Shown here piece after piece: positions 5,195 to 59,646 of a stretch of 64,000 bases of DNA. The notes under the pieces are model-generated. The model ran no database searches, was not told the origin of the DNA, and worked only from the letters and a program-made list of their open reading frames with translations. The position numbers and the translations under genes were made by a program. Source of the stretch: Prevotella sp. (GTDB lineage Bacteria; Bacteroidota; Bacteroidia; Bacteroidales; Bacteroidaceae); contig JAGAPR010000003.1 of NCBI GenBank assembly GCA_017623155.1, positions 143,093 through 207,092 on the forward strand, read 5' to 3'. Numbering within the stretch: the stretch's first letter is position 1; every line of letters begins with the position of its first letter.

Positions 5195-5239
5195 CAAATC
5201 ATTTAAGACGCATCGGCATGTCGTTTTTCGCCGAATATT

Positions 5240-5270
5240 TTTGATACATCGGTTTAATGTAGTATCTTTG
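5240..5270 (+). promoter_or_regulatory. Promoter of structured RNA 1 (TTTG-N19-TATCTTTG)
   Basis: TTTG at 5240-5243 and TATCTTTG at 5263-5270, spaced exactly 19 nt, a textbook Bacteroidota promoter. The whole segment is nearly identical to 8695-8725 upstream of RNA 2, showing the promoter is part of the duplicated unit. Confidence 0.85.
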
Positions 5271-5275
5271 CCGTT

Positions 5276-5525
5276 GTAAAAAAGAGTGAAAACAAAGAAA
5301 ACAGCGGAAAAGCGTTTCCCCGCTCTTTACTTATTATAGAAGATATCAGGACTAAAGTCCTTGTTCTCTCAACTCGAATAACCGCCAAAATATTCATATA
5401 CGAGAACAAGTGATGACAGGTCTGTGTCCCTTTGGGGCGCGGACCGCTCATACTTGTTTGTATATGCGGTTTGCTTGGCGGTTAACCGGAGTTGAAGACG
5501 AGTATGTAGTGGGCCCGCCTTTTTT
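5276..5525 (+). ncRNA. Structured RNA 1 (paralogue of RNA 2), upstream of HTH gene
   Basis: Predicted transcript of about 250 nt from the TATCTTTG promoter to a T-run (5520-5525). Elements: stem AAAGAG/CTCTTT (5281-5286/5323-5328) enclosing a GCGG/CCGC hairpin; a small GGAC/GTCC hairpin (5349-5360); then one long irregular hairpin. Its stems are CAACTC/GAGTTG (5370-5375/5489-5494), AACCGCCAA/TTGGCGGTT (5380-5388/5475-5483), CATATAC/GTATATG (5395-5401/5460-5466), CAAGTG-(A)-TGA/TCATACTTG (5407-5416/5448-5456) and an apical 12-bp stem (5419-5430/5434-5445). RNA 2 keeps every stem with compensated changes. It was not matched to a known family; a 6S-like or regulatory leader role is possible. It ends about 90 nt before the HTH gene. 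Confidence 0.8.
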
Positions 5526-5615
5526 CGTTATACTTCACTTGAAAACCCAACATCTCCGCACACTTCTGCCGACGGCACGGCCGCAGGCAGATGGCGGAGC
5601 ATAACGAAAAAGAGC

Positions 5616-5852
5616 ATGATAAGCATCGGACAACGCATCAAAGAAGAACTCGACCGGCAGGAACGCAGCATCAGCTGGCTCGCACGAAATCTCAACCGCG
5701 ACCGCACCGTCGTGTACCGCATCATACGAGGCAACAGCATCGACACCGCACTGCTGGCAAGCATCTCGCGAATACTACGTCACGACTTCTTCACCGACCT
5801 CTCTGAAGACCTCGGAGGCCCCGACTGTGACATAAACGCTACAGATTTGTAG
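5616..5852 (+). CDS. Small HTH (XRE-like) DNA-binding protein, copy 1
   Basis: 78 residues: MISIGQRIKEELDRQERS, then a helix-turn-helix SWLARNLNRDRTVVYRIIRG, then NSIDTALLASISRILRHDFF. This arrangement (GQRIKEEL, WLARNLN, RTxVYRI, SIDTxLLxxISRIL-HDFF) is a common small Bacteroidota regulator form. It is about 75% identical to the copy at 9030. Start: ATG at 5616 gives the same N-terminus as the paralogue. It follows structured RNA 1 by about 90 nt and precedes an envelope-protein gene with its own promoter. It probably regulates its own cassette; this is inferred from position only. Confidence 0.85.
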   Translation: MISIGQRIKEELDRQERSISWLARNLNRDRTVVYRIIRGNSIDTALLASISRILRHDFFTDLSEDLGGPDCDINATDL

Positions 5853-5896
5853 CATTTACGACACACCTTTTACAGCCGCCTTGCATGAAAAAGGCA

Positions 5897-5904
5897 TATC
5901 TTTG
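5897..5904 (+). promoter_or_regulatory. Promoter -7 element TATCTTTG for the beta-propeller gene
   Basis: Lies 55 bp before the ATG in the segment GAAAAAGGCATATCTTTGCA, which is homologous to 9303-9322 in copy 2. No good TTTG -33 element is visible, suggesting an activated promoter. Confidence 0.6.
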
Positions 5905-5958
5905 CATCGAGAATTAAACACAAATGTATTTACAATTTACTAAAAACATTACACCCCG

Positions 5959-6930
5959 ATGAAAAAGATGTTAGCGGCTTTCGGTGCATTGCTCATGGCG
6001 GTACCGTCGACGGCACAGGTAGATTACTCCGTGGTGTCGGTAAACGAAGAGTCCGGAATGGAGTTTACACGCATAACCTCCGAGAACGACTATGTGTGCA
6101 TGCCGGAAGTGCACCGCTCGGGAAGCACGGTCAACTGGCTGTCGAACCGTATACTCGACATCTCCACCGACGGCACGCAGCTGGCCTATCTGTCGGCCCG
6201 CAACAACACGACAAACATATTTATAAAGGATATCGGGAAGCAGGGCAGCAGCGTGCAGCGCACCAACAGGCAGGCCGTGCTCGACTTCTCGTACTCTCCC
6301 GACGGCAAATACATCTGCTTCTCGGAGCAGAGCGGCCGCTATAACCAGATATTCCAGACCGGAGCACGCGCCGGATACGTCTGCCGGCAGATAACAGGCA
6401 ATAATAAAGACTATTCTCCCGTGTACTCGGCCGACATGAAAAACATATTCTTCGCACGGCAGGAAACCAACGGTGTGAGCGTGTGGAGCTACAACATATC
6501 AAACAATTTCCTCTCGAGCTACACCAAAGGCATGAACCCGTGCCCCGTGTCAGGGCAGACATCGATACTCTGCACGCGGATAAACGCGCAAGGCAACGGC
6601 GAGATATGGCGCGTGGACTACTCCACCGGAATGGAAGAGTGCATACTCTCCGACCCCAACCGCAGCTTCACGTCACCGACATTGTCGCCCGACGGACGGT
6701 GGATACTCGCCGTGGGAAGCAACGTTCTCTCTGCCGGCACATTCATGTATGCCAACACCGACATCTTCGTATGCCGCACCGACGGCACACAGCTCACCCA
6801 GCTCACATATCATGCGGCCGACGACCTCAGTCCCGTGTGGAGCCGCGACGGACGGTATATATACTTCATCTCGCAGCGCGGAAGCGCCGAGGCCGCCGCG
6901 AACGTGTGGCGCATGACATTCGCGTATTGA
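5959..6930 (+). CDS. TolB-like PD40 beta-propeller protein, secreted
   Basis: 323 residues with a signal peptide (MKKMLAAFGALLMAVPSTAQ). The body has successive PD40 (TolB-type WD40-like) blades: STDGTQLAYLSARNNTTNIF (about 70-90), LDFSYSPDGKYICFSEQSGR (about 108-128), YSADMKNIFFAR (about 155-166), LSPDGRWILAVGS (about 242-254) and WSRDGRYIYFISQRGS (about 297-312). It probably acts as a periplasmic or surface protein-interaction platform; no catalytic residues are seen. It lies between the HTH gene and the first outer-membrane protein, 45 bp upstream of the latter, so the two are probably one operon. The second cassette copy has no equivalent, only a 29-codon frame at this position. Confidence 0.88.
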   Translation: MKKMLAAFGALLMAVPSTAQVDYSVVSVNEESGMEFTRITSENDYVCMPEVHRSGSTVNWLSNRILDISTDGTQLAYLSARNNTTNIFIKDIGKQGSSVQRTNRQAVLDFSYSPDGKYICFSEQSGRYNQIFQTGARAGYVCRQITGNNKDYSPVYSADMKNIFFARQETNGVSVWSYNISNNFLSSYTKGMNPCPVSGQTSILCTRINAQGNGEIWRVDYSTGMEECILSDPNRSFTSPTLSPDGRWILAVGSNVLSAGTFMYANTDIFVCRTDGTQLTQLTYHAADDLSPVWSRDGRYIYFISQRGSAEAAANVWRMTFAY

Positions 6931-6975
6931 CACATATAAAGCTAAATACAGTATTAATTTAAACATTAGGAAAAC

Positions 6976-7719
6976 ATGAAAATGACTAAATTGTTTATCG
7001 CCGCAGCAATGTTGGCAGTGAGTGCTACGGCGTCAGCCCAGTTTACTAACACAGCGAAGACCGGCTCTTCATCGGCAGTGGACACCAACGGATGGGGAAC
7101 GTTCTACTTGCAATGGAACCCGAGTACCATAAAAATAGATGTCAATGGCATTGATGACCAGTCGTTTACCGGATTTTCGGTTGGTTACAACCATGCGTTC
7201 GGCATCGTAAAGAACACGCCTTTGTTCATTGAAACAGGTGTTGCGCTTCAGTATTCGTTCTATACGGTTAATTGGAAGGATGATTTAAAAACAACAGTAC
7301 CAAACTGCGATCCGGAGGATAAATATAATATGTTGTCGGCCAAAGTTCCGGTTAATTTAATATACAAATTCAACATTCCCAACAGCAATGTGGCCATCGC
7401 TCCATATTTTGGCGCAAATCTCCGTTTTAATATATCCGGAAAGAGCAAGACTGAGTTTAACGAAGATGCGGGATATGAGATAGACAAAGAGTATTGGGAA
7501 AATAAATATAACAAAATAGAGAAAGATTTATTTGATAAAAAAGACATGGAAAGCAAGGACGCGACATGGAAACGATTCCAGATTGGCTGGCAAATAGGCG
7601 TGAACGCTCACTTCGGAGAGAACTTCCTATTGGGTATCTCTTACGGTTCCGACTTCTCGGAATTGTATAAAAAGGCTAAGATCAACACTACGTCGATTAC
7701 TCTTGGATACAAATTTTGA
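6976..7719 (+). CDS. Outer-membrane beta-barrel protein, copy 1
   Basis: 247 residues. A signal peptide (MKMTKLFIAAAMLAVSATASAQ) precedes alternating amphipathic strands of a small beta-barrel such as TGFSVGYNHAFGI, ALQYSFYTVNW, KVPVNLIYKFNIPNSNVAIA, FQIGWQIGVNAHFGENFLLG and the C-terminal TTSITLGYKF, which ends in Phe as outer-membrane barrels do. It resembles the porin-family/OmpW-sized proteins of Bacteroidota. It is roughly 55-60% identical to the protein at 9489; differences concentrate in loops rich in Asp, Glu and Lys. Ligand or pore role unknown. Confidence 0.85.
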   Translation: MKMTKLFIAAAMLAVSATASAQFTNTAKTGSSSAVDTNGWGTFYLQWNPSTIKIDVNGIDDQSFTGFSVGYNHAFGIVKNTPLFIETGVALQYSFYTVNWKDDLKTTVPNCDPEDKYNMLSAKVPVNLIYKFNIPNSNVAIAPYFGANLRFNISGKSKTEFNEDAGYEIDKEYWENKYNKIEKDLFDKKDMESKDATWKRFQIGWQIGVNAHFGENFLLGISYGSDFSELYKKAKINTTSITLGYKF

Positions 7720-7763
7720 TTTGTTAAAGCAACCGAATGTTACACATTAAGTTTTAAATAATA

Positions 7764-8489
7764 ATGATTAAGACAATAAGATATTTTTTGATTATACTTC
7801 TTTGTTGCAACATCTTCATGTGTTGCAGTGATGATGATGATAATAATAACGGTACCGAAACATCCTTGTCTGCACTTGTTGGAAAATGGCGTCAGTCTTA
7901 TTATGACGGATATATCGAGATGACTTTTAATAAAGACGGTAGTGGTACGGAGTACGAAGAAGGCTACGCCCCCGGCGGATATTTAACTCATTTTGACTGG
8001 ACTTATAATGAACGAACCCGGAAACTCACGATAAAATACATTGACGATGATGAACTTGATACAGAAGTATATATCGTTAAAAGTATATCCCAAAGCCGTA
8101 TGATTCTTGAAGATGAAGATGGTGACACTCAGATTTGGGAAAGATACAGTTATGGAGACGAAGATGATGACAATAACGACGGAAACAAGTATTCTTCCGG
8201 CATAGTTGGAACATGGAGATACAGCTATGAGTCAAGCCATGGCGCAATGGAAGGGTATGTATTTATGACGTTTAATTCAAATGGAACCGGCGTTATGCGC
8301 GAGCAAGACGGTTCGTTCAGTGACGAATTGCGCTTTACCTATACTTATTCCAAGTCCACAGGCTCACTCATTTTGGATTACACAGACGGAGAACGGGAAA
8401 AATATACCGTTTTAAGTATCACATCAAATGAGATGAAAGTCTTGGATGAATACGGTGATTTAACGGTTCTGAAAAGAGTGAGACAATAA
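7764..8489 (+). CDS. Lipocalin-like lipoprotein with two repeated domains
   Basis: 241 residues. N-terminus MIKTIRYFLIILLCCNIFMC is a lipoprotein signal, followed by CSDDDDNNNG, an Asp/Asn-rich linker typical of surface-exposed lipoproteins. Two similar domains follow: LVGKWRQSYYDGYIEMTFNK (about residues 35-115) and IVGTWRYSYESSHGAMEGYV (about 150-240), each with G-W-R, a MTFN-(K/S)-x-G-(S/T)-G strand, and a closing IWERY or VLKRV strand. This is the lipocalin-like fold common in Bacteroidota. The acidic EDDDNNDGN linker joins them. Located 45 bp after the outer-membrane protein, probably same operon; absent from the second cassette copy. Binding partner unknown. Confidence 0.82.
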   Translation: MIKTIRYFLIILLCCNIFMCCSDDDDNNNGTETSLSALVGKWRQSYYDGYIEMTFNKDGSGTEYEEGYAPGGYLTHFDWTYNERTRKLTIKYIDDDELDTEVYIVKSISQSRMILEDEDGDTQIWERYSYGDEDDDNNDGNKYSSGIVGTWRYSYESSHGAMEGYVFMTFNSNGTGVMREQDGSFSDELRFTYTYSKSTGSLILDYTDGEREKYTVLSITSNEMKVLDEYGDLTVLKRVRQ

Positions 8490-8500
8490 AATACGATAAA

Positions 8501-8521
8501 ATCAGGACATTACATCCTGAT
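8501..8521 (+). terminator. Hairpin terminator after the lipocalin-like gene
   Basis: ATCAGGA/TCCTGAT stem with a 7-nt loop, 12 bp after the stop codon. Confidence 0.55.
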
Positions 8522-8553
8522 AAAAAAGACTGTTGTGAAACAGATTTTTCCTT

Positions 8554-8604
8554 CCTCCGGCCGACGATTAATAATTGAGTTTTTATCTGATACGCGGCCG
8601 GAGG
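8554..8604 (+). terminator. Conserved CCTCCGGCCG/CGGCCGGAGG hairpin, cassette copy 1
   Basis: Perfect 10-bp stem (8554-8563/8595-8604) around an AT-rich loop. Stem and loop are repeated almost unchanged at 10281-10331 after the second outer-membrane gene, marking the right end of each duplicated cassette. A further inverted repeat (AACACAG/CTGTGTT, about 8612-8676) ends in a T-run before cassette 2. Confidence 0.8.
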
Positions 8605-8694
8605 TTCTTTATAACACAGGCACATGCACCCATGTATCGCTGTCACTGCAAGGCAGTCGTATTCATGGGCTGTGTTGTTTTTTCGCCGAATATT

Positions 8695-8725
8695 TTTGAT
8701 ACATCGGTTTAATATAGTATCTTTG
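8695..8725 (+). promoter_or_regulatory. Promoter of structured RNA 2 (TTTG-N19-TATCTTTG)
   Basis: TTTG at 8695-8698 and TATCTTTG at 8718-8725 with a 19-nt spacer, the same as for RNA 1. Confidence 0.85.
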
Positions 8726-8730
8726 CCGTT

Positions 8731-8982
8731 GTAAAAAAGAGTGAAAACAAAGAAAACAGCGGAAAAGCGTTTCCCCGCTCTTTACTTATTATAGAAGATT
8801 TGGGACTTGAAGTCCTTGTTCTCACAAGTCGAATAACCGCCAAACTATTCAATACACGAGAACAAGTGACGAATTGGTCGGTGTCCTTATTGGGCGCGGT
8901 CTGCTCGTGCTTGTCGGTGTATTGCGGTTTACTTGGCGGTTGACCGGACTTGAAATAAGCAAGCGGTGGACCGGCCTTTTTT
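8731..8982 (+). ncRNA. Structured RNA 2 (paralogue of RNA 1), upstream of HTH gene
   Basis: About 252 nt, ending in the T-run 8977-8982. The 5' third is nearly identical to RNA 1. The long hairpin is kept although the sequence differs: CAAGTC/GACTTG (8825-8830/8947-8952), AACCGCCAA/TTGGCGGTT (8835-8843/8933-8941), AATACAC/GTGTATT (8851-8857/8917-8923), and the upper stem with the same single bulged A (8862-8873/8905-8914). At least four base pairs differ from RNA 1 on both sides at once. The HTH gene starts 47 nt downstream. Confidence 0.8.
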
Positions 8983-9029
8983 GTTGTTTCCCGACAAACG
9001 GAAATACCGTAACACTAACAACAAAGACA

Positions 9030-9245
9030 ATGATAAATATAGGACAGCGCATAAAAGAAGAGCTTGACAGGCAGGAAAGAAGCGTGAGCTGGCTGGCACG
9101 CAACCTCAACAGAAACCGTACGGCGGTATATCGCATACTGCACGGCAACAGCATCGACACCACTACACTGGCAAGCATATCTCGAATACTGGGCCACGAC
9201 TTTTTCAAAGAATTGTCGGACGATATCAACGGATGCGGATTGTAA
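9030..9245 (+). CDS. Small HTH (XRE-like) DNA-binding protein, copy 2
   Basis: 71 residues: MINIGQRIKEELDRQERSVS followed by WLARNLNRNRTAVYRILHGN and SIDTTTLASISRILGHDFF. It is the paralogue of the protein at 5616 and shares its helix-turn-helix. The frame is open further upstream, through RNA 2, but the ATG at 9030 matches the paralogue start; the extension would translate the RNA hairpin and is rejected. It sits in the order RNA, HTH, outer-membrane protein, as in copy 1. Confidence 0.85.
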   Translation: MINIGQRIKEELDRQERSVSWLARNLNRNRTAVYRILHGNSIDTTTLASISRILGHDFFKELSDDINGCGL

Positions 9246-9312
9246 CAAAAACGGTACATATATGTCGCGCTTTTGATACACTGTTTTTTATCCCGTTTGT
9301 ATGAAAAAGAGA

Positions 9313-9320
9313 TACCTTTG
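9313..9320 (+). promoter_or_regulatory. Promoter -7 element TACCTTTG, cassette copy 2
   Basis: Homologous to the TATCTTTG at 5897. It lies upstream of the 29-codon frame and the second outer-membrane gene. Confidence 0.6.
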
Positions 9321-9368
9321 CATCGGTAATTTAATAGTATTTATCATTTATTAAAACATAAGAAACCG

Positions 9369-9458
9369 ATGCAAAGATATTCAACGGCACTAATTCTGTT
9401 TCTCGCGGCCTGCCTGACGTTGATAAATATTCATATTATACAATACAAAACAGTTTAG
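9369..9458 (+). CDS. 29-codon hydrophobic ORF at the position of the lost beta-propeller gene
   Basis: Reads MQRYSTALILFLAACLTLIN then IHIIQYKTV, stop: a short hydrophobic, signal-peptide-like peptide. It starts where the beta-propeller gene starts in cassette copy 1 (both begin ...CCGATG after a homologous promoter and leader) and ends 30 bp before the outer-membrane gene. It may be the left-over signal-peptide region after a deletion, a leader peptide, or chance. Confidence 0.3.
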   Translation: MQRYSTALILFLAACLTLINIHIIQYKTV

Positions 9459-9488
9459 TTCAACAATTAATCAAAAACTTAAAGGATT

Positions 9489-10232
9489 ATGAAAACAATG
9501 AAATCTATTCTCGTCGCCCTGCTTTTAGCAGTGAGCGCAACAGCTTCGGCGCAGTTTACAAACACACACAAGAGAAGCTCATCGAAAACAGTTAAAACCG
9601 CCGGATGGGATTATTTCTACGTGCAATGGAACCCGAGTTCGTTTAATTTCGATATTGACGATGTCGACAATCAGTCGTTCACAGGCTTCTCAATAGGTTA
9701 CAACAAAGCGTTCGGTATCGCCAACAAAACTCCGTTGTTCCTCGAAGTGGGCGCTGCGCTGCAATATTCGCATTATACTGAAGACGGAAAAGTGCTGATG
9801 TATTTCTATGATGAAGATTATGAAGATATCGAATACGACGTTGTTGACGGCGAGGAAAAGTTCAACATGTTCTCCGTCAAAGTGCCGGTAAACCTTCTTT
9901 ATAAATTTGATATCCCCAACAGCTCGGTATCTTTGCTTCCTTTCGTGGGTGCGACCCTGCGTGGTAATATAAGCGCGAAGAAAAAAGTATGCGTTACGGA
10001 CGATGACTATGATTTGGATGGAATAGAGGATACGGAGTATGATTTGTTCGACAAGAAGGATATGGGAAGCAAAGAGAAATGGAAGCGTTTTCAGATTGGA
10101 TGGCAAATTGGCGTGAACGCGCACTTCGGCGAGAGCTTCCTTGTTGGCCTTTCTTACGGTTCCGACTTTTCGGAAATATGCCGGAAAACGAAAATCAACA
10201 CCACATCCGTCACTCTCGGATATCGTTTCTGA
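9489..10232 (+). CDS. Outer-membrane beta-barrel protein, copy 2
   Basis: 247 residues, the same length as the copy at 6976. Signal peptide MKTMKSILVALLLAVSATASAQ. Shared barrel strands include FYVQWNPSSFNFDIDDVDNQ, SFTGFSIGYNKAFGI, KVPVNLLYKFDIPNSSVSL, WKRFQIGWQIGVNAHFGESF and TTSVTLGYRF with a terminal Phe. Acidic loops (EDYEDIEYDVVDGEE and TDDDYDLDGIEDTEYD) replace different acidic loops of copy 1. It has an AAGGATT ribosome-binding-like stretch before ATG. It is followed by the duplicated CCTCCGGCCG terminator. Function unknown beyond an outer-membrane barrel. Confidence 0.85.
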   Translation: MKTMKSILVALLLAVSATASAQFTNTHKRSSSKTVKTAGWDYFYVQWNPSSFNFDIDDVDNQSFTGFSIGYNKAFGIANKTPLFLEVGAALQYSHYTEDGKVLMYFYDEDYEDIEYDVVDGEEKFNMFSVKVPVNLLYKFDIPNSSVSLLPFVGATLRGNISAKKKVCVTDDDYDLDGIEDTEYDLFDKKDMGSKEKWKRFQIGWQIGVNAHFGESFLVGLSYGSDFSEICRKTKINTTSVTLGYRF

Positions 10233-58780: not shown

Positions 58781-59338
58781 TTATAAATCCTCGCCGTTAG
58801 CCTCGTTATAACCGTTCTCGTAGAACATAGCTATACGATAATCACCATAAAGTTCGTTTATCATAAACCAGACTAATCGATTTGAAGGGTCATCATTTTC
58901 TGTTCCAATTCTTTGAAAAAAAGAGGCTTGATAGCGTTTTTTATTTATTAAAATTTCATGCTGGATATTCTCATCATCCGGTATAAAATAACCATCTAAT
59001 GCCGCTCTGGAATATTTAGTGTTTCTATCAAATTGCCTACAAAGCTCATTAAACCGTATTTTTATATTCGTTTCATCAATTCCATTTACATCTGATACTA
59101 TTATCCTCCACACTTTGTTGTTATTTGTTTGAATACTGATTGTTACTTTTTTACCGTTAAACTCCCCTGTTAAACAATCATAAGTGGCATTATATGCATA
59201 CCCCTTTGCTTTTAATTTCTGTATCATAGCCTGCTTACTGCCATCCACAGGAATGCCAAGAAACTTTGTAACGTCTTTCTGTCCGTATGCAACAACTGAT
59301 AGAAAGACAACCAACATAACCGATAATACCTTTTTCAT
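58781..59338 (-). CDS. Hypothetical secreted protein
   Basis: 185 residues from ATG 59338; an ATG two codons upstream is also possible. Signal peptide MKKVLSVMLVVFLSVVAYGQ, then KDVTKFLGIPVDGSKQAMIQ, KLKAKGYAYNATYDCLTGEF NGKKVTISI (parts) and a beta-rich rest. Similar small secreted proteins with the FLGIPVDGSK start are frequent in Bacteroidales, without known function. It precedes the 84-residue gene by 19 bp. The 6S-like RNA lies just upstream in the same direction. Confidence 0.75.
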   Translation of the reverse strand: MKKVLSVMLVVFLSVVAYGQKDVTKFLGIPVDGSKQAMIQKLKAKGYAYNATYDCLTGEFNGKKVTISIQTNNNKVWRIIVSDVNGIDETNIKIRFNELCRQFDRNTKYSRAALDGYFIPDDENIQHEILINKKRYQASFFQRIGTENDDPSNRLVWFMINELYGDYRIAMFYENGYNEANGEDL

Positions 59339-59387
59339 AATCATAAATTTAGCTCCTCAGACCAAATAAGAGCGGTTTAATTATATA

Positions 59388-59603
59388 TAAAAGAGCGTGG
59401 CCTGCCATGCGCCACGTCTTAAAGTGCAGGCCCTGAGAAAACCTTAATAGACAGATATGGTGACAACAGCCCACGCTATAACGTGGGAACTGTCATGCCA
59501 ACTCTTGTCTATTAGTGATAAAGTTTCTCAGGCTTCGCACTTACAAGATGAGGACATAACGCTCCTTTTTTAAAAGATCAACGGCAAAAACAAATTTAAC
59601 CGC
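59388..59603 (-). ncRNA. 6S-like long-hairpin RNA (candidate)
   Basis: Predicted transcript of about 215 nt on the reverse strand, from a TATCTTTG element (59608-59615) to a strong terminator (59391-59420). One extended hairpin: AAGTGC/GCACTT (59422-59427/59537-59542), CCTGAGAAA/TTTCTCAGG (59432-59440/59524-59532), an asymmetric bubble of 5 and 10 nt, AATAGACA/TGTCTATT (59446-59453/59506-59513), TGACA/TGTCA, and an apical CCCACG/CGTGGG stem. A long hairpin with a central bubble is the layout of 6S RNA; identity is inferred, not proven. Confidence 0.7.
59391..59420 (-). terminator. Terminator of the 6S-like RNA
   Basis: Reverse strand AAGACGTGGC / GCCACGCTCTT stem (one bulged C) followed by TTATATATAA. 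Confidence 0.8.
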
Positions 59604-59607
59604 ACCG

Positions 59608-59615
59608 CAAAGATA
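59608..59615 (-). promoter_or_regulatory. Promoter -7 element TATCTTTG of the 6S-like RNA
   Basis: Reverse-strand match; a TTTG lies at 59633-59636 with a shorter than usual 17-nt spacer. Confidence 0.65.
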
Positions 59616-59646
59616 ATAAAAATAATATATAACAAATAAAAAATCT

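Follow-up and report, generated by a model that had tools for sequence, protein, structure and literature searches.

A probable leader RNA of Prevotella and other Bacteroidota with two mutually exclusive folds backed by covariation: a candidate riboswitch-like transcription attenuator

Introduction

Bacteroidota dominate many gut and rumen communities, and to our knowledge few RNA regulators have been described for this phylum. 6S-Flavo and Bacteroidales-1 are structured RNAs of Bacteroidota, and Flavo-1 is a family in Rfam. The trp/TRAP and ribosomal-protein leaders are protein-dependent attenuators, in which a terminator and an antiterminator compete. In this study, we analysed a 64,000-nucleotide stretch of DNA from Prevotella sp. 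(assembly GCA_017623155.1, contig JAGAPR010000003.1, positions 143,093 to 207,092; hereafter the window), which carries two copies of a structured RNA of about 250 nt, here called the switch RNA, each upstream of a small helix-turn-helix (HTH) gene. Its sequences support two mutually exclusive folds, and we consider it probable that the RNA is a cis-acting, riboswitch-like transcription attenuator that works through them.

The switch RNA resembles terminating riboswitches in its probable position in a 5′ leader, in alternative folds that share a strand, in a terminator stem with a U-run and in the likely lack of a leader peptide. It differs from them in that nearly the whole molecule would rearrange, the downstream genes are very diverse and no Rfam family matches it. 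With trp/TRAP-type leaders it shares competing leader folds and a downstream gene that may encode the binder, here the small HTH protein; however, many members of the family precede non-HTH genes, and the HTH protein is a candidate binder. 6S-Flavo and Bacteroidales-1 differ from the switch RNA, which is multi-copy, linked to genes and without a match in Rfam scans. Among candidate structured RNAs of the human microbiome, the available text of PMC8040213 gives HTH_XRE as the commonest domain directly downstream, with 15 candidates in a potential 5′ untranslated region. Where that text gives a length, the candidates span 40-132 bp, and pieces of the present family may be among the 3161 of them (PMC8040213). 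Structured 5′ transcribed regions, likewise from this phylum, and Flavo-1 are reported for Flavobacterium psychrophilum, but the available text of that paper does not describe the fold (PMC9723704), and a scan of 20 of our loci gave only tRNA matches in Rfam. The kind of element, a riboswitch-like transcription attenuator, is known, whereas the family itself is without an Rfam match, and no paper naming it was found among the open-access papers searched.

Results

Both RNAs lie in the window where the initial annotation, made from the sequence alone, had placed them (Table 1). Their promoters are near-identical, their 5′ thirds are in common, and both fold better than all of 200 dinucleotide shuffles (z -7.05 and -4.30). 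The promoter boxes were labelled by the Bacteroidota-type consensus. The annotation had described two paralogous RNAs; both are real, but a third member exists in the window. All the compensated pairs that it had listed were found in the window sequence: CAACTC/GAGTTG versus CAAGTC/GACTTG corresponds to helix P3a and CATATAC/GTATATG versus AATACAC/GTGTATT to helix P4, and the third set (TGA/TCA versus CGA/TCG) is located between P4b and P5. It had argued from these pairs for selection on RNA structure, and the covariation was kept in a larger alignment of 99 sequences.

The helices belong to a single long hairpin composed of P3a, P3b, P4, P4b and P5, which we call fold A. Across the 99 sequences, two-sided changes occur in at least one sequence at 38 of 39 pairs, and 94.7% of cells are paired. 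When the partner strand was slid by 1-3 columns, pairing dropped to 34-42%, and none of 500 shuffles reached any of five measures. Since the alignment was fitted to R1, a covariance model built from 37 sequences that already holds most of these helices, the covariation counts lean towards them. All four Watson-Crick types are in use in P3a and P4, while P3b (ACCGCCAA/UUGGCGGU in the window) is constant in most copies and shows compensated changes in distant ones. G-U cells are far more frequent than A-C cells (309 versus 21), which indicates that the structure is selected as RNA of the + strand and not as DNA.

The initial annotation had noted the long hairpin. It does covary, but a second covarying fold that excludes it had been overlooked. 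This fold, fold T, is composed of an early hairpin, H1, and a stem, H2, in which the 3′ arm of P5 and the strand following it pair with the 3′ tail. The strand UUGUUCUC of H1 adjoins the 5′ side of P3a, its partner GAGAACAA lies between P4 and P4b, and the loop of H1 contains the 5′ strands of P3a, P3b and P4. H1 and H2 are nested, and so are P3, P4 and P5, but the two sets cross. P5 and H2 cannot coexist because the 3′ arm of P5 is common to both.

Fold T is absent from the model behind the alignment. In H1, 96.8% of cells are paired and two-sided changes are found at 6 of 8 pairs, 3 of these in one sequence only. For fold T as a whole, 86.4% of cells are paired in fixed columns, compared with 42-55% in slid controls; 24 of 33 pairs show two-sided changes, or 19 of 28 when P2, which is common to both folds, is excluded. 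G-U cells again outnumber A-C cells (316 versus 69). Own-pair duplexes were also compared with cross-pair duplexes in 98 sequences, with segments for the two parts of H2 that overlap slightly. H1 (z -11.6) and upper H2 (z -14.5) were both favoured, with 0 of 1000 permutations as good, and the 3′ arm of P5 paired with the tail at -20.16 kcal/mol in own pairs versus -16.10 kcal/mol in cross pairs (z -14.4, 0 of 1000 permutations). Control pairings gave null results (5′ arm of P5 with the tail, z -0.4; A3-E3, z 0.2; A5-E5, z -1.1). In an unsupervised covariation analysis, pairs of both folds rank high. The median length and energy of the best H2 duplex are 19 bp and -24.15 kcal/mol, and the first U follows at 0 nt in 95 of 102 sequences. 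In the third member of the window, the H2-type duplex reaches -31.0 kcal/mol and the H1-type duplex only -7.8 kcal/mol. Covariation and energies thus both point to exclusive folds, one of which holds an intrinsic-terminator stem, as in riboswitches.

Table 1. Positions in the window of the switch RNA copies, their predicted structural elements and adjacent genes
Feature	Position	Strand	Details
Switch RNA copy 1	5276..5525	+	estimated start to end of U-run; R1 150.5 bits, R2 143.4 bits over 5298-5525
Switch RNA copy 2	8731..8982	+	R1 134.6 bits, R2 124.7 bits over 8753-8982
Remote third family member	59389..59619	-	R2 51 bits, E 2.8e-7
Copy 1 putative Bacteroidota-type promoter	5240..5270	+	TTTG 5240-5243, TATCTTTG 5263-5270; from sequence
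Copy 2 putative promoter	8695..8725	+	TTTG 8695-8698, TATCTTTG 8718-8725; from sequence
Copy 1 P2 hairpin	5349..5360	+	shared by folds A and T
Copy 1 fold A hairpin	5370..5494	+	P3a 5370-5375/5489-5494, P3b 5381-5388/5475-5482; covariation n = 99
Copy 1 fold A, inner helices	within 5370..5494	+	P4 5395-5401/5460-5466, P5 5419-5429/5435-5445
Copy 2 fold A hairpin	8825..8952	+	P3a 8825-8830/8947-8952, P3b 8836-8843/8933-8940
Copy 2 fold A, inner helices	within 8825..8952	+	P4 8851-8857/8917-8923, P5 8876-8886/8892-8901
Copy 1 H1	5361..5409	+	UUGUUCUC 5361-5368 with GAGAACAA 5402-5409; equilibrium probability 0.98-0.99 at 134 and 146 nt
Copy 2 H1	8816..8865	+	8816-8823 with 8858-8865
Copy 1 H2, terminator stem	5435..5520	+	5435-5460 with 5495-5520, 23 bp, -33.0 kcal/mol
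Copy 1 U-run, foot of H2	5520..5525	+	
Copy 2 H2, terminator stem	8892..8977	+	8892-8915 with 8954-8977, 21 bp, -28.4 kcal/mol; U-run 8977-8982
Copy 1 second hairpin, U-run to HTH start	5524..5608	+	-34.2 kcal/mol, z -5.22
Small HTH gene 1	5616..5852	+	78 aa, predicted Cro/CI-type fold
Small HTH gene 2	9030..9245	+	71 aa from its ATG
Open reading frame, signal-peptide-like start	58781..59344	-	187 aa; 44 nt behind third member

The switch RNA is associated with genes on its own strand. Of the 86 members flanked by 600 nt or more on either side, 78 are followed within 100 nt by the start of a same-strand open reading frame (ORF) at least 60 aa long, compared with 10 of 86 when the 5′ end was tested in mirror fashion and 24.8 expected at random positions; with ORFs of at least 120 aa, the corresponding numbers are 56, 3 and 14.6. 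Over all 104 members, including 3 whose downstream sequence is shorter than 300 nt, the distance to a same-strand ORF start is at most 400 nt in 99, 100 nt in 91 and 30 nt in 61. A TAnnTTTG box lies between -200 and +30 nt of the model start in 68 of 98 members, versus 10.1 expected from mononucleotide shuffles, and the fuller TTTG/TAnnTTTG pattern in 28 of 98, versus 0.5 expected. Seven HTH genes start only 0-2 nt behind the RNA (L125, L129, L131, L132, L133, L135 and L141), so there is no space for a second promoter.

We examined 94 downstream proteins, excluding that of L067, five members with no ORF and four whose ORF starts more than 160 nt away. Matches to the BspA-type leucine-rich repeat family were obtained for 20, and inspection by eye assigned 19 to the small HTH type of the window. 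Many others start, by eye, like secreted proteins or lipoproteins, and single cases include a DNA methylase, a protein of the RhuM family and one carrying a chemoreceptor signalling domain.

In the window, T-runs are indeed followed by HTH genes 90 and 47 nt on, as had been described. This arrangement is seen beyond the genus too, but only in part of the family. Eight genomes picked for carrying the RNA were searched with one HTH protein, which gave 46 loci. At 22 of them, the matched stretch begins 1-106 nt downstream of an RNA that was detected by R1 or by R2, a broader model from 99 sequences. Twenty of the other 24 were examined, and 12 of these have a same-strand upstream R2 match with E-values of 9.1e-14 to 0.015, which are rough because filters were off; in total, 34 of 42 examined HTH loci in these eight genomes follow the RNA. 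Seen from the RNA side, 22 of 45 loci in the same genomes precede an HTH gene, with 4 of 4 and 5 of 5 in two genomes and 0 of 5 in another. At L278, L284, L285 and L290, very divergent RNAs precede HTH genes (E 4.9e-7 to 2.5e-4, filters off), and the one at L293 was recognised by eye only (E 2.5). These divergent RNAs suggest that the family is wider than R2 detects.

The predicted model of HTH protein 1 is a five-helix HTH, the fold of the Cro/CI type (predicted local distance difference test 85.7, predicted template modelling score 0.72). Its nearest PDB chains include SinR and restriction controller proteins (best E 7.8e-3, none below 1e-3). At an E-value of 0.001, Pfam gave no family for the two HTH proteins of the window, and NCBIfam matches stayed below the cut-off.

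The initial annotation could not match the RNA to a named family, 6S-Flavo and Bacteroidales-1 being two that it considered, and this holds: at the gathering thresholds of Rfam 15, no family matches the RNA in the whole window and 37 further loci, where the only matches were tRNAs and one Acido-Lenti-1 outside the RNA (L022). Permissive searches, which covered 5200-9050 and six loci, yielded only candidates that were rejected: L20_leader and RmaA, for example, were minus-strand matches at chance level (E > 1), and Plastid-ycf2 (E 0.0073) sits opposite a tRNA.

A blastn search with copy 1 in 60 genomes (the window's own and 59 relatives) returned both copies and three partial matches. A short pattern derived from these matches was found in 43 stretches of genome contigs, comprising 35 members with the P3b partner strand downstream, 7 chance matches in other taxa and L019, which is clipped by the stored end and resembles a member. 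The members came from records titled Prevotella, Prevotellaceae, Paraprevotella, Palleniella, Bacteroidaceae, Bacteroidales, Candidatus Equimonas and, for one metagenome-assembled genome, Roseburia; the contig of this last copy (L026) is probably a misbinned Bacteroidales contig. In alignment A3, locus L039 was swapped for the same place in L004. Model searches gave 156 matches, of which 150 were aligned. Of these, 46 overlapped a better one from the same source, mainly as echoes on the opposite strand, and were dropped; this left 104 members, with one locus counted twice (L067/L092).

The search of Bacteroidales genomes with a covariance model that the annotation had proposed was productive. 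Because 5-7 candidates per genome were scored in the genus, order and phylum searches, the counts are lower bounds. R1 matched at least 133 of 299 genomes of the window's genus, including at least 50 of the 131 with completeness of 90% or more and contamination of 5% or less, and at least 100 of 393 genomes of the order (66 of 206 genera). R2 matched at least 61 of 395 genomes of the phylum (32 of 170 genera), and 20 of these 61 are outside the window's class. The window's own genome has 8 loci (R2, E <= 6e-5), three of them inside the window, and genome G051 has 19 separate loci among 129 candidates scored. Paired or tandem RNA-gene units occur at L149, L152, L211 and L212, and the genes of L211 and L212 are related; it looks as if leader and gene multiply together.

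Within the window, 5240-10232 is a duplicated unit of the RNA, the small HTH gene and an outer-membrane beta-barrel gene. The beta-barrel genes (6976-7719 and 9489-10232) are alike by eye, and the first unit additionally has genes for a PD40 beta-propeller protein and a lipocalin-like lipoprotein. The second hairpin of copy 1 has a weak counterpart in copy 2 at 8981-9024 (-9.4 kcal/mol, z -2.16). The start of the protein encoded behind the third member resembles, by eye, those behind L094 and L099.

Discussion

The two crossing helix sets are most simply read as two global folds that replace each other, one being an intrinsic terminator. On this basis, we consider the following mechanism probable. 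The RNA would be the 5′ leader of the following gene, and H1 would be the first helix to form during RNA synthesis. If H1 is held, whether because an effector stabilises it or because nothing displaces it in time, P4 and P3 would be blocked, the tail would take the 3′ arm of P5 to make H2, and the polymerase would halt ahead of the gene. If P4 and P3 oust H1, fold A would retain the arm in P5 and read-through would be possible. An effector stabilising either state would set read-through. In truncated window transcripts, folded as equilibrium snapshots and not by kinetic simulation, H1 has a probability of 0.98-1.00 at 134-146 nt in copy 1 and at 135-176 nt in copy 2, and P3b has a probability of 1.00 from 209-212 nt.

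The effector is most likely a small molecule or signalling nucleotide, which would be recognised by P2/H1 or by the P3 core; the RNA would then be an orphan riboswitch class. The main alternative is a protein effector acting by the same mechanism, perhaps the encoded HTH protein in the HTH-type copies. We rate the small molecule as somewhat more likely than the protein. Attenuation by a leader peptide was considered and ruled unlikely: ATG-initiated short ORFs starting upstream of P5, the only start codon counted, were found in 42 of 102 sequences, versus 76.5 in mononucleotide shuffles, and this depletion disfavours it.

Several observations weigh against attenuation by these two folds. Shuffles alone pair 79.7% of fold T cells; pairing in fixed columns is only 75.5% for lower H2 and 75.9% for the small inner GG/CC helix, which has no double changes. 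The duplex permutation tests ignore phylogeny, a further pairing, A3-E5, was weakly favoured (z -4.1 over all sequences, 0.2 in the better-scoring half), and columns that form no pair also appear in the unsupervised covariation ranking. H1 and upper H2 could coexist with P3/P4 as pseudoknots. A Prevotella-type clade has a stem, P1, that pairs the lead with the tail (z -11.0), and since P1 ends at the U-run, fold A together with P1 might itself terminate. At equilibrium, H1 is lost by 197-200 nt, before the 3′ strand of P3b and the tail exist. By nearest-neighbour energies, the full-length RNA is more stable in fold A, with a median difference of 15.1 kcal/mol (5-95%: 4.4-23.8), so fold T would have to be trapped kinetically or aided by an effector. 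Copy 1 carries an extra hairpin between the U-run and the start codon, and the downstream genes are too diverse for a single metabolite.

The pseudoknot arrangement was at first preferred. In that explanation, P3/P4, H1 and upper H2 form one pseudoknotted fold that serves as a protein-binding or mRNA-stabilising leader, and the pairing of arm and tail is a mere terminator or processing signal. On the P3/P4 hairpin, H1 and upper H2, each of which covaries, can be arranged as pseudoknots. However, P5 and the arm-tail stem also covary and share one strand, so a single fold cannot satisfy both, and each helix set is nested when taken separately. The pseudoknot-only explanation was demoted once it emerged that the P5 3′ arm and the tail covary as a stem nested with upper H2, and we now regard it as quite improbable.

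Of the three roles that the initial annotation had offered, namely regulator of the HTH gene, trans-acting RNA and 6S-like RNA, cis-regulation of the downstream gene is favoured by the nearby ORFs and the 0-2 nt gaps. A 6S-like role does not agree with up to 19 loci per genome, most of them tied to a downstream gene, and with the result of the Rfam scans. A separate small RNA, transcribed from a promoter of its own to its own terminator and acting in trans on mRNAs or a protein while the gene is expressed by incidental read-through or from another source, would account for the promoter-like box upstream, the strong terminator-like stem with its U-run and the many divergent copies per genome. 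Such an independent RNA would not need a same-strand ORF so close behind it, nor the 0-2 nt gaps at HTH genes, and the strands of P3a and P4 vary between copies, giving no sign of a shared seed; we consider it unlikely, although a trans-acting role for the terminated products of an attenuator is possible. The many copies per genome could also be expected of a mobile or repeat element, such as a miniature inverted-repeat transposable element (MITE) or an attC-like DNA structure, that lies before genes by chance. In the fragmented genome G051, a contig end is found within 600 nt for 12 of the 19 copies (L144-L147, L206-L220), a count for which no null was computed; this position suggests nearby repeats. 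The excess of G-U over A-C cells in both folds is a mark of selection on one RNA strand and rules against a MITE- or attC-like DNA element, and four copies in a UBA4361 genome differ in P3a and P4 with compensation. Phage or plasmid origin was also rejected. On viral contigs there were 42 pattern matches, of which 37 failed a loose filter and 5 were inspected, none being a member, and a distant blastn search with copy 1 found nothing in plasmids or phages, these searches having used the pattern and blastn and not the covariance models. A mobile element is thus very hard to reconcile with the data.

In conclusion, we found that a probable leader RNA with two mutually exclusive, covarying folds precedes small HTH genes and other genes in Prevotella and its relatives. 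It is conceivable, although we hold the idea only tentatively and lean slightly against it, that the RNA is a phylum-wide new riboswitch class in which one shared signal, a metabolite or second messenger, acts through up to 19 leaders per genome and jointly sets Cro/CI-type regulators and surface proteins. If this is true, an RNA-based regulon would set the make-up of the cell surface, with its BspA-like leucine-rich repeat proteins, lipoproteins and receptors, in a phylum that is dominant in the gut and rumen. The two folds give exact, testable predictions, and the HTH-linked copies are a compact system in which to search for the trigger. A bistable leader present so widely in the genus and in other classes, in multiple copies, would be a common form of RNA control, and through it a single signal could connect small HTH regulators with surface proteins.

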